Shown: positions 44,889-50,829 of the stretch, piece by piece
How the letters are laid out: each line of letters opens with the position of its first letter
Position numbering within the stretch: position 1 is the first letter of the stretch
NCBI GenBank assembly: GCA_012103315.1
Contig: WLWZ01000001.1
Coordinates: 62,001-126,000, forward strand
DNA: 64,000 bases
Direction of reading: 5' to 3'
Source of the DNA: Alphaproteobacteria bacterium
Lineage (GTDB): Bacteria > Pseudomonadota > Alphaproteobacteria > MPNO01 > UBA2964
Made by a program: the position numbers and the translations under genes
Notes under the pieces: model-generated
What the model was told of the DNA's origin: nothing
Database searches by the model: none
What the model saw: the letters and a program-made list of their open reading frames with translations, nothing else

Positions 44889-44961
44889 GAAGATAAGTCT
44901 TATTTCGTTTTGAATTAGTCGCCGCCGCTAAATTTGAGCGGTGAAAATTGGGGAGCTTAAT

Positions 44962-47900
44962 ATGCGTTTGTCGCTCATTTTATTCGGGCTGCACATCCTT
45001 CTGAAATATACCGCCTGGCGCTATCCCACCTTTGCCAAACGGCTGAAGGAACAGAACATGTCTGCCCAGATCAAAACCTGGGATGATAAGACCGGCCGTT
45101 GTTTCACATTCCAGGATGGCAAGGTCTCGTCGAAATGTGGGATCAATGCCGACGCTGACATCTGTATGTCGTTCAAAACCGAAAGTCTTGCGGTTAATTT
45201 GCTGATGCCGCCAATCAACTGGCTCGATCAGATCAACGCGCTCAAAGACTTCAAGCTTAAGATGGATGGTGATGACGGGCTCGCCAACTGGTTTGCCCAG
45301 ACGACGATGATGACCCAGAGCATTGGCTGGGCATGGGGTAGTGAATCCGCTGATGGCATGAAACGCACCGTTAATATGACAAATGGCGGTCCGGTCTTTG
45401 TCGATGTGAAGGACGAAAAGATTATCCGACTTACGCCGATTGACCTCGGTGACGATGACACGCAGCCCTGGACGATCAAGGCGCGGGGTATGGAATTTAC
45501 CCCACCGCGCAAGACGACATTGGCACCACATGGTCAGAACGCCAAATCCATTGTGCACTCGCCAGACCGGCTGCTCTATCCCATGAAACGCGTGGATTTT
45601 GATCCCAATGGCGAGCGCAACACGCAAAACCGTGGGATTTCCGGCTATGAACGAATTTCCTGGGATGAGGCGATTGATATCGTCGCCACTGAGACCAAAC
45701 GTCAGAAGCGCGTCCATGGTCCGGGCTCCATCGCCAACTCGCATGGCTCGCATCACACCTGGGGCAATATTGGTTATTACCTCAGTGCGCTCTACCGGTT
45801 CCGCAATGCGGTTGGCATGACCCACCTGCATCATAACCCGGATAGCTGGGAAGGCTGGTACTGGGGCGCCGTGCACCATTGGGGACACAGTCTGCGGGTC
45901 GGTCAGTCCGAAACCTATGGCACCGTCGAAGACTGCCTACAGAATTGTGATCTGGTGGTGTTCTGGTCTGCTGATCCTGAGACCACAAGTGGCTCCTATG
46001 GTGCACAGGAAGGCACCGTTCGACGGCAATGGCTCAAAAACCCCGATCTTGGCATCGACGTCGTTCATGTCGATCCGTACTACAATGCGTCGGCACAGTT
46101 CCTGCCCGGCAAATGGTTTGCGCCGAAGCCGACGACCTCAGTCGCGATGGCAATGGCAATCGCCTATGTGTGGATTCAGGAAGGGCTTTACGACAAAGAC
46201 TATGTTGAGACCCACACCGAAGGGTTTGATGTCTGGAAAGCCTATCTCACTGGTGACGAAGACGGCATCGCCAAGACACCCGAATGGCAGGAAGCTGAAA
46301 CTGGGGTGCCCGCCAAGGACGTGCGGGCGCTCGCGCGGGATTGGGGCAAGAAGCGCGTCTATCTCGCACCGGGTGGCTGGGGCAATGGCCATGGTGGTGC
46401 GTGCCGTAATCAGACGGGTATCCAGTGGGCCCGTGTCATGGTGTGCCTTGTTGCGATGCAAGGGCTCGGTAAGCCTGGCGTCAATATGGGCAATCTACAA
46501 TGGGGTTGTCCGGTTGACTTCAACTTCTATTTCCCGGGCTATGCCGATGGCGGCATGTCGGGTGATCTGGAGAATACATCGATGCCGGTTGAGCTCTATC
46601 AGCGGATGCCACAGCTGCCGACGATGAATGCATCGTTTCAGAAAATTCCGCGGATTAAAATGCCGGAAGCCATTCTGAACGGTAAGGCAGAAGGCCAGCC
46701 TTGGATCGGTAAATCGATCGAGCATCAATTTGGCAAGATGGCCTATCCGGCGCCTGGTCATGCGCCAGTGCGTATGCTGTACAAATATGGTGGCTCGATT
46801 CTCGGGACCATGAACAATACCAACCGCTGGGTAAAAATGTACCAGTCGGAAAATATCGAATTCGTGGTCAATCAGTCGATTTGGGATGAAGGCGAGGCCA
46901 AGTTCGCTGATATCATTCTGCCCGCCTGCACCAATTTTGAACGACCCGATATCAGCGAGTGGGCCGGTCTTGGTGGCTATGGTCATCATGGTCAGCAGCA
47001 GCTGAATCACCGCGTTATCGTGTTTCAGGCACCGGCGATCAAGCCACTGGGCGAGTCCAAATCCGATTTCTGGATCTTTAACGAAATATGTAAAAAGCTC
47101 GGACTGTCGAATTATTTCTCAGAAGGCATCAACGAGATCGATTGGGTAAAACGCCAGTTCGATGCGTCGGATCTGCCAACCCAGATAACCTGGAAGAAGT
47201 TCATCAAAAAGGGCTACTACGTGGTGCCGTCCGAGAAGGAAGAATTCCGCGCGCCTGTATCCTTCCGCTGGTTTTGGGAAGGGCGCAAAAAAGACGTGCC
47301 TGAGCCACAGCCTTTGCCATCGGATTACACTGAGGAATATCTCAAAGGTTTGCAGACGCAATCTGGCAAGCTGGAGTTTGAGTGCAATAGTCTGAAACGG
47401 TTTGTCGATCCCGAACGGCCACCGATTGTGAAATATGAACCGGCCTGGGAAGGGCCGCATAGCGGCGAGATGTTTGAGAAGTTTCCGCTGCAACTCCTGA
47501 CGCCACATTCGAAATACAGCTTCCATACCCAGGGCGACGGCAAAGACAGCTTCCTGCTCAACATCCCCGATCATCGGGTGCTGATTGATGGCTGGTATTA
47601 CTGGGTGATGCGCCTCAACGCGGAGGATGCTGCCGAACGCGGTATCAAAAAGAACGATCTGGTGAAGGTCTACAATGAGCGTGGCTGTGTGATCTGTGCC
47701 GCCCTGCCAACGGCACGATTGCCTAGAGGCGTGTGTCATGGTTACGAGTCATCAGCGATGTATGAGCCGATGGGCGAACCTGGCAAGTCGGTTGATCGTG
47801 GCGGGTGCCTCAATTTGCTGACACCTAGCAAAACCCAAACCAAAACGACGCATTCACTGGCGGGTGCCAATGCGCTAGTAGAAGTGGCGGTCTGGGACGG

Positions 47901-47967
47901 CAATACAGACTTTGTATCGGCAGCATTTATCGACGGACACCCTGAGGGTGTCGCGGCGGCTGAGTAA
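44962..47967 (+). CDS. Molybdopterin oxidoreductase resembling pyrogallol-phloroglucinol transhydroxylase large subunit, with N-terminal SCP2-like domain
   Basis: 1001 residues of the DMSO-reductase superfamily. The Mo-core begins near 134 ([22 protein letters not shown]) with no N-terminal [4Fe-4S] motif, as in transhydroxylase. [11 protein letters not shown] (about 292-302) gives the Mo-ligand Ser295 flanked by Asp294 and Trp296; [11 protein letters not shown] (about 263-273) gives His264 and Tyr272 at the expected distances. From memory these correspond to Ser175, Asp174, Trp176, His144 and Tyr152 of the Pelobacter enzyme. Residues 1-125 are extra: a hydrophobic start ([14 protein letters not shown]) then [13 protein letters not shown]...[20 protein letters not shown], an SCP2 sterol-carrier-like pattern. 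ATG 44962 has GGGGAG 6 bases ahead. The small-subunit gene follows after 16 bases. Real substrate unknown. Confidence 0.85.
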
Positions 47968-47983: not shown

Positions 47984-48826
47984 ATGTCTAAATGGAACCT
48001 GATCGTTGATGTTGCCGAATGCACCAACTGCAATAACTGCACCCTGGCGGCGATGGATGAGTATATCGACAATGACTGGCCGGGCTATTCCGCGCCGATG
48101 CCAAAGCACGGCCATCGCTGGATCGATATCAAACAAAAGGAACGTGGCGCGGTGCCTTTCATGGATATCGCCTATGTGCCCACCATGTGTAATCACTGCG
48201 ACAACGCACCTTGCATGAAAGCGGCGGGCGATGATGGCTCGATCACCAAGCGTGCTGACGGCATCGTGCTGATTGACCCAGAGAAAGCGACGGGCCGCAA
48301 AGATCTGGTCGATGCCTGCCCGTACGGCCATATCTGGTGGAATGAAGAGCTCGAACTGCCGCAAATTTGGACGTTTGATGCACATCTTCTGGATCAGGGG
48401 TGGCAACAGACGCGAGGGCAACAATCTTGCCCAACCGGCGCAATGAAAGCCGTCAAACAGGAAGACGCTGCCATGCAGAAAATGGCCGAAGAAGAAGAGC
48501 TCGAAGTCATCCAGCCCGAGCTCGGCACCCAACCGCGTGTTTGGTACAAAAATCTCTGGCGCTATAGCAAAGCCTTTATCGGTGGCAGTGTGTCTTCGGA
48601 AGCTGACGGTGTTGTCGATTGCGTTGAAGGGGCGGCGGTAACTTTGTCAAAAGATGGCAACACTGTTGCAGAAGTTGTCACTGATATTTATGGCGACTTC
48701 AAGTTCGACAAGCTCGACGATGATAGTGGCAGCTATTCGGTCGAGATTACTGCCAGCGGTCACGATACAAAAACCGTCGCGGCAGAGTTAGGCGAAAGCG
48801 TTTATCTCGGAGAAATTCGCTTATAG
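47984..48826 (+). CDS. Iron-sulfur small subunit of the transhydroxylase-like enzyme, one cluster apparently lost
   Basis: 280 residues in two parts. Part 1 is a ferredoxin-like domain with Cys13, 16, 19 (CTNCNNC), 69, 72, 77 (CNHCDNAPC), 112 (CPYG) and 149 (CPTG): eight ligands, enough for two [4Fe-4S] clusters. The fourth cysteine of motif I is Ala23, the usual CxxC of the last motif reads WTFD (129-132), and its third Cys is Gly145, so the third cluster's four ligands are all gone. Part 2 (about 198-280) is a transthyretin/carboxypeptidase-regulatory-like beta domain (GVVDCVEGAAVTLSKDGNTVAEVVTDIYGDFKF region), as in the Pelobacter small subunit of 274 residues. No export signal. Confidence 0.87.
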   Translation: MSKWNLIVDVAECTNCNNCTLAAMDEYIDNDWPGYSAPMPKHGHRWIDIKQKERGAVPFMDIAYVPTMCNHCDNAPCMKAAGDDGSITKRADGIVLIDPEKATGRKDLVDACPYGHIWWNEELELPQIWTFDAHLLDQGWQQTRGQQSCPTGAMKAVKQEDAAMQKMAEEEELEVIQPELGTQPRVWYKNLWRYSKAFIGGSVSSEADGVVDCVEGAAVTLSKDGNTVAEVVTDIYGDFKFDKLDDDSGSYSVEITASGHDTKTVAAELGESVYLGEIRL

Positions 48827-49906: not shown

Positions 49907-50829
49907 ATGAAAGCGGCTTACTTTGAAGAACATGGCGGCCTGGACGTTATTCAATTTGGCGAGCTGCCGGACCCGGTCGCCGGTGCGGGTGAGGTTGTTA
50001 TCGATATCCATGCGGCCTCTGTGAATGGTGCTGACTGGAAGGTCCGTGAGGGCGCCTATAAGCAGGTTTCGTATTTCCCTATGTATTGGGTCGTGATTTT
50101 TCCGGCACAGTTTGCGAAGTCGGTGACGGTGTCTCGGACTTTGCGATTGGTGATGAAGTGTTTGGTGTCTGTGATGTCGGGCAGGAAGGCACTTATTGTG
50201 AAAAGGTCGCGATGAAAGCCGCTTTGTGTGCGCCGAAACCTGCCGGGCAATCGCATATCGATATCGCAGCTTTAGCGCTCATCGGACTTACCGCTGTGAT
50301 TTCCGTCGAAGATACGCTGCACCTCAAAGCTGGTGAAAAGATATTGATTCAAGGTGGCGCGGGTGGCGTTGCCAGTTTCGCCATCCAACTCGCTAAACAT
50401 ATCGGGGCGCATGTCATCAGCACGACCAGCGTCGGCAATGTTGACTATGTCCGTGGCTTCGGTGCGGATGAGGTCATCGATTATAACGCGCAGGATTTCC
50501 GCGATGTTGTCTCCGAGTGTGATGTCGTGTTTGACACAGTCGGTGGCGATGTTGCCAAAGGGGCATTCGATGTTCTGAAATCCGGTGGCCGTGCAGCGTT
50601 TATCGCGTCCGGTGTCAATGGTCTGGAATCACCATCCAGTGACTTCACGTCTTTGCGTCCCAATGTATATCGCGATCGTCCGCATCTGGAACGGGTTGTT
50701 GAGCTGATTGAAGCCGGTGCAGTGACGGTGCCGGCAGTGAAATTGTTCGCGCTCGATGACGCGGTTGAAGCGCTGAAGCTCAGCGAGAGGCGGCACTTCC
50801 GCGGCAAGTTGGTGTTTAACTACCGCTAA
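49907..50829 (+). pseudogene. Zinc-less MDR quinone oxidoreductase, single-base frameshift
   Basis: The 307-residue medium-chain dehydrogenase/reductase is split by a one-base deletion. The first part (49907-about 50080) reads MKAAYFEEHGGLDVIQFGELPDP..., ending FP; the second, one frame over, continues YVLGRDFSGTVCEVGDGVSDFAIGDEVFG and runs to 50829. The missing base is a T near 50080-50081 (CCCT|ATG should give CCT TAT GTA). The rest is intact: GGAGGVASFAIQLAKHIGA (NADPH turn), VVFDTVGGD, and a normal C-terminus. A sequencing or assembly error is as likely as a true mutation. The end overlaps the convergent LLM gene by 14 bases. Confidence 0.85.

Follow-up and report, generated by a model that had tools for sequence, protein, structure and literature searches.

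The small subunit encoded at 47984..48826 (+) of the window, the whole 64,000-nucleotide stretch of DNA analyzed here, quite probably belongs to a two-cluster, transhydroxylase-like Mo-bisPGD enzyme of aerobic aromatic catabolism. As read from the sequence, the middle (FS2-type) [4Fe-4S] cluster would have been lost stepwise, leaving an interrupted electron relay and an enzyme of redox-neutral chemistry.

The Gene Pair and Its Closest Relatives

The small-subunit reading frame (280 residues, ATG start) lies immediately downstream of the large-subunit gene (44941..47967, +), the product of which is a 1008-residue molybdopterin oxidoreductase. The best solved relative of the small subunit, matched over residues 2-279, was 4v4c_B (E 2e-78), the small subunit of the pyrogallol-phloroglucinol transhydroxylase (TH) of Pelobacter acidigallici; a polysulfide reductase NrfC-like protein followed with E 1e-17. 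The large subunit matched that of TH, 4v4c_A, with E 7.8e-287 and carries the AhtL-like_1st domain (PF21423, E 8.1e-24), so that both subunits are homologous to those of TH (AthL/BthL) over their full length. An AlphaFold2 model of the small subunit, built from 38 sequences, had a mean pLDDT of 95, and was superposed on 4v4c_B with Z 33.7 and an rmsd of 1.2 Å over 270 residues. The likeness in architecture extends to a C-terminal transthyretin-like/CarboxypepD_reg domain (approximately residues 195-280; 48566..48823, +), which was recognized by PF13620 and by a fold match, and which TH also has. The pair therefore shows the features of the TH-like family, namely, an AhtL-like large subunit, a small subunit with the TH fold, and conserved residues in the Mo pocket.

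Cluster Ligands of the Small Subunit

The TH small subunit contains 12 candidate ligand cysteines (13, 16, 19, 23, 68, 71, 76, 109, 126, 129, 145, and 149), and the equivalent residues in the window protein are, in the same order, C13, C16, C19, A23, C69, C72, C77, C112, W129, D132, G145, and C149. Eight of the 12 cysteines that make up three complete [4Fe-4S] ligand sets in TH are thus kept, and in this the protein departs from a pyrogallol-phloroglucinol transhydroxylase in the strict sense. The initial annotation had listed these eight, all of which were confirmed at their positions, and had missed only Cys213 in the C-terminal domain. It had also named residues 23, 129, 132, and 145 as the lost ligands of a single cluster, with alignment to a characterized transhydroxylase as the check; in the alignment to 4v4c_B, these were exactly the non-cysteine positions among the 12 columns, and TH has cysteine at all four.

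In proteins with the two-cluster ferredoxin pattern, each cluster is held by the first three cysteines of one motif and the last cysteine of the partner motif. Motif I (48020..48052, +) retains C13, C16, and C19, with alanine in place of its fourth cysteine and Asn15 in place of aspartate, and the remainder of motif IV (48416..48430, +) contributes C149, while G145 replaces a cysteine. By this motif logic, C13/C16/C19/C149 would form the kept FS1-type set. Motif II (48188..48214, +) retains C69, C72, and C77, and C112 of the C112-P113 remnant of motif III (48317..48322, +) would supply the fourth ligand of a kept FS3-type set, C69/C72/C77/C112. The former CxxC pair of motif IV (48368..48379, +), now W129 and D132, would have belonged with A23 and G145 to the lost, middle FS2-type set; this assignment combines the ferredoxin pattern with the fold match and with the co-loss described below. 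The FS4-type set, that is, the last cysteine of motif II and the first three of motif III, is missing from TH as well as from the window protein. The TH cysteines would suffice for three [4Fe-4S] clusters, and the window protein is accordingly predicted to hold two.

The placing of the motif I cysteines in FS1 is consistent with the NarH C16A mutant, which was solved, according to the title of PDB entry 3egw, as a cluster variant. The probability that four changed positions among 12 ligands coincide by chance with exactly one cluster's set is 3/495 = 0.006. A sequencing error or frameshift was excluded as the origin of the changes, since the substituted codons are unremarkable (GCG, TGG, GAT, and GGG for A23, W129, D132, and G145) and the same changes are common to about 90 near and distant relatives.

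In the DMSO reductase family, beta subunits with four clusters (NarH, EbdB, NrfC/PsrB-like proteins) have the same two-lobed ferredoxin fold. They differ in retaining either all 16 ligand positions or a [3Fe-4S] variant, and in conducting electrons straight through. The genome that contains the window also encodes a second, distant small subunit of this kind (L081; G000:C15:188307-189095), with 37% identity to the window protein. It has all 12 TH ligand cysteines together with the fourth cysteine of motif II and, judged by these residues, is probably part of a four-cluster enzyme.

Conservation among Relatives

A scan of 84,980 species genomes, draws by family, class, and order, and plasmids together yielded about 90 usable relatives with the same lack; the two-cluster comparison set comprised 90 full-length small subunits, and the characterized resorcinol hydroxylases lie outside the sampled set. 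The CxxC pair of the FS2-type cluster was absent from all 90. At the other eight ligand columns, cysteine was found in 719 of 720 cells, confirming that one complete ligand set is gone and two are kept. The single exception is a C16S change (CHNSNNC; L057:10001-10837), which would harm the FS1-type cluster as well. The signature is thus shared throughout a large clade, and is not a peculiarity of this one gene. Its members were found in alpha-, beta-, and gammaproteobacteria and, in addition, in one acidobacterial bin and a small number of deltaproteobacterial and Desulfovibrio bins. Within an alphaproteobacterial order, G592, the gene was present in 17 of 24 species genomes, compared with eight of 385 in the class-wide draw.

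The vacated positions are of two kinds. At the former CxxC pair, position 129 is aromatic throughout (Trp in 87, Tyr in two, and Phe in one) and position 132 is Asp in 90/90, a fixed pair that is diagnostic of the two-cluster clade. Positions 23 and 145, by comparison, vary among 11 and five kinds of residues, respectively. Residue 15 (window 48026-48028) is Asn in 90/90 two-cluster proteins and Asp in 3/3 three-cluster proteins. Only three of the latter were found, namely, TH, a protein from Alkalibaculum (L063), and one from a bacterial bin (L073). When plasmids were searched with TH as the query, no new three-cluster member could be recognized among the 40 records listed, and a search with a benzoyl-CoA reductase marker, directed toward the resorcinol hydroxylase of Azoarcus and Thauera, marked only alphaproteobacterial genomes.

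The serial loss of clusters, with the FS4-type set already gone in TH and the FS2-type set following, might be taken as the decay of a vestigial small subunit in an enzyme that is losing its function, and the C16S change in the FS1 set of one relative (L057) would fit such a course. This explanation is very improbable, as the reading frame is open, the model is of high confidence, and the eight ligands, W129, D132, and the Mo pocket are strictly conserved across alpha-, beta-, and gammaproteobacteria.

Order of Ligand Loss

The relatives document intermediates. Each of the seven proteins with an intact CxxC pair has retained both Cys23 and Cys145; where the pair was absent, Cys23 was kept in 5/90 and Cys145 in 36/90 (both in three proteins, only Cys145 in 33, only Cys23 in two, and neither in 52). 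On a small-subunit tree computed without the ligand columns, each member of the CxxC pair changed once, Cys145 five times, and Cys23 three times. A branch of moderate support (84/87) set all W/D proteins apart from the rest, and a single W/D clade was not rejected on a larger, two-subunit tree (p-AU 0.525). The loss was therefore probably stepwise, with C129W and C132D first, and Cys145 and Cys23 following piecemeal. A loss of all four ligands in one step was excluded by the intermediates that keep Cys23 and/or Cys145, so the initial annotation's view that the four had been substituted together was not borne out. Its assignment of the four to one cluster was strengthened by the same data and by the ferredoxin pattern: Cys23 and Cys145 were lost only where the pair had already gone, which supports the notion that the four positions act as one functional unit.

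A sequence of events can be proposed on these grounds. In a first step, the CxxC pair would have been replaced by Trp and Asp, together with D15N, so that a normal [4Fe-4S] cluster could no longer form. The new residues would then have become fixed, probably filling and polarizing the cavity, and Cys23 and Cys145, now without a task, would have drifted independently of each other from lineage to lineage. Since W129, D132, and N15 are strictly conserved, the replacements must have a role, for which the filling of the cavity and the settling of its charge may be the simplest inference.

Retention of some ligands raises another possibility, which is that the vacated site holds a different center, such as a [3Fe-4S] cluster ligated by Cys/Asp/Cys or a mononuclear metal site. 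Three relatives with the C23 + W/D + C145 combination (L105, L106, and L108) keep Cys23, Asp132, and Cys145, and thus three potential ligands; in this reading, they would be the carriers of such a center and possible [3Fe-4S] intermediates. Asp-ligated ferredoxins carry their aspartate at the second motif position, and in NarH and ethylbenzene dehydrogenase (EbDH) a [3Fe-4S] cluster takes the place of a [4Fe-4S]. Against this, the window protein is left with Asp132 alone, which is unable to hold a cluster, both cysteines are gone in 52/90 relatives, and there is no conserved substitute at position 23 or 145. An alternative center is therefore improbable, and a site emptied of its cluster remains the preferred reading.

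The Large Subunit and the Mo Site

Alignment of 63 large subunits showed that His144, Tyr152, Asp174, Ser175, Trp176, Tyr404, and Tyr560 (TH numbering) are almost all conserved, the exceptions being Y560V in L073 and D174I in L094. In TH, Ser175 is the Mo ligand, and His144, Asp174, and Tyr560 are residues of its pocket; these four are shared by TH and the window protein. Arg153 of TH is replaced by Tyr or Trp in the aligned large subunits. The Mo site thus appears, from these residues, to be intact, and the relay shortened. Since the pocket is conserved, the transfer of oxygen or hydroxyl groups on a phenolic substrate is probably retained.

A further difference from TH lies at the N-terminus of the large subunit. 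An extension of approximately 140 residues (44941..45363, +) occurs in the large subunits of almost all relatives, among them the three-cluster L063 and L073, and is absent from Pelobacter TH. The model of this domain (pLDDT 79) matches SCP2 folds, for example, UbiJ (6h6o, E 2e-5, TM 0.56); the Pfam SCP2 family gave only a hint, with E 0.19 in one relative. The additional SCP2-like domain in this model suggests a hydrophobic substrate for the Mo enzyme.

The large-subunit gene was found upstream of the small-subunit gene wherever the contig extended far enough. Several Hyphomicrobiales loci (L012, L018, L029, L035, L038, L046, L068, and L070) have approximately 800-1000 bases between the two genes, and in L038 and L046 this stretch contains cupin-like reading frames.

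The Electron Path and the Proposed Chemistry

The FS1-type cluster would be, as in relatives, the small-subunit cluster closest to the Mo cofactor; in NarGH, the edge distance between the two is 12.2 Å (PMC5123574). In EbDH, FS1 and FS2 are separated by 6.6 Å and FS2 and FS3 by 5.4 Å, the potential of FS2 is near -400 mV, and electrons pass the clusters in numerical order (PMC8840923). As the lost cluster is, by motif logic, of the middle, FS2 type, FS1 and FS3 would be left without a bridge, and the electron path is likely cut. From the EbDH distances and the cluster size, the remaining gap was estimated to be approximately 15-17 Å, over which the Moser-Dutton relation gives about 4e2-7e3 per second for direct FS1-FS3 transfer, compared with approximately 1e9 per second through FS2. 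By this estimate, direct transfer would be five to six orders of magnitude slower, yet possible. The proposal in the initial annotation that the change halves or reroutes the electron path thus held in part: the bridge between FS1 and FS3 would be gone, but TH has three clusters rather than four, so that a fall from three to two is no halving, and slow direct tunneling would be possible.

TH has been cited as pairing the abstraction and insertion of an oxygen atom in one catalytic cycle (PMC10420851), which makes a through-path unnecessary in that enzyme. Resorcinol hydroxylase (RhL/RhS of Azoarcus anaerobius) belongs to the same catalytic family, the Ser-ligated Mo-bisPGD branch acting on phenols, but differs in that its net oxidation releases electrons (PMC10100899). 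That TH needs no through-path, while resorcinol hydroxylase has electrons to release, favors a redox-neutral reaction for the two-cluster enzymes, and the relay is probably interrupted because the chemistry is redox-neutral. In such a transhydroxylation, electrons would stay near the Mo, FS1 might act as a local buffer, and FS3 would be structural or vestigial.

The main rival to this reading is that the two-cluster enzyme still exports or imports electrons as a net hydroxylase or dehydroxylase, the electrons jumping the 15-17 Å from FS1 to FS3, perhaps aided by Trp129. The ligands of FS3 are conserved as strictly as those of FS1, which would be odd for a useless cluster, although a conserved cluster may also serve the structure. 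The estimated rate is fast enough for many enzymes, even if 10^5-10^6 times slower than that through FS2, and resorcinol hydroxylase provides a precedent for electron release within the family. Residue 129 is aromatic in every two-cluster relative; however, for Trp to relay electrons between clusters with potentials near 0 V is implausible on energetic grounds. In addition, no electron-carrier gene was seen next to the pair in the annotated neighborhoods. Net redox chemistry over a longer jump is, on balance, unlikely, although it deserves more weight than the explanations considered above. The W/D pattern, if present in resorcinol hydroxylases, would weaken the redox-neutral reading.

Genomic Context

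The genes surrounding the pair in the window encode an alpha/beta hydrolase, a flavin aromatic-ring hydroxylase, an extradiol-type dioxygenase, a TauD dioxygenase, a luciferase-like monooxygenase, an acyl-CoA-dehydrogenase-like protein, an enoyl-CoA hydratase, and an FAA hydrolase, and constitute a neighborhood of aerobic aromatic catabolism. The same genome encodes a haem-copper oxidase. TH, in contrast, comes from a strict anaerobe, while the window pair lies amid O2-dependent aromatic-degradation genes. Where the pair is carried on plasmids of rhizobia and Burkholderia, it adjoins genes for VOC proteins, FAA hydrolases, and acyl-CoA synthetases. A search for conserved neighbors across the clade revealed that the gene set of the window is common to close relatives only, and the substrate can therefore not be read from synteny.

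Downstream of the pair, a zinc-type alcohol dehydrogenase at 49907-50829 extends over two frames, with a frameshift near 50083. In five close relatives (L003-L006 and L042), its two parts match neighboring segments at the same 6-base spacing, consistent with one frame.

Implications

It has been puzzling that TH keeps an Fe-S chain even though its net reaction exports no electrons. A large natural group that is devoid of the bridging cluster, and that includes intermediates, offers a direct test of this puzzle: should the two-cluster enzymes prove active despite lacking the chain, it would be dispensable for catalysis. More tentatively, and somewhat short of probable, a widespread, largely aerobic Mo-bisPGD clade may have dismantled its relay from the middle with the Mo site still functional, passing from four to three to two clusters, with redox-neutral chemistry and an SCP2-like domain for hydrophobic phenols. 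If this is true, the natural stepwise series would show Mo-bisPGD enzymes catalyzing redox-neutral group transfer. Biochemically, the TH family is known from anaerobes; these findings carry it into many aerobic alpha- and betaproteobacteria, with copies on rhizobial and Paraburkholderia plasmids among them.
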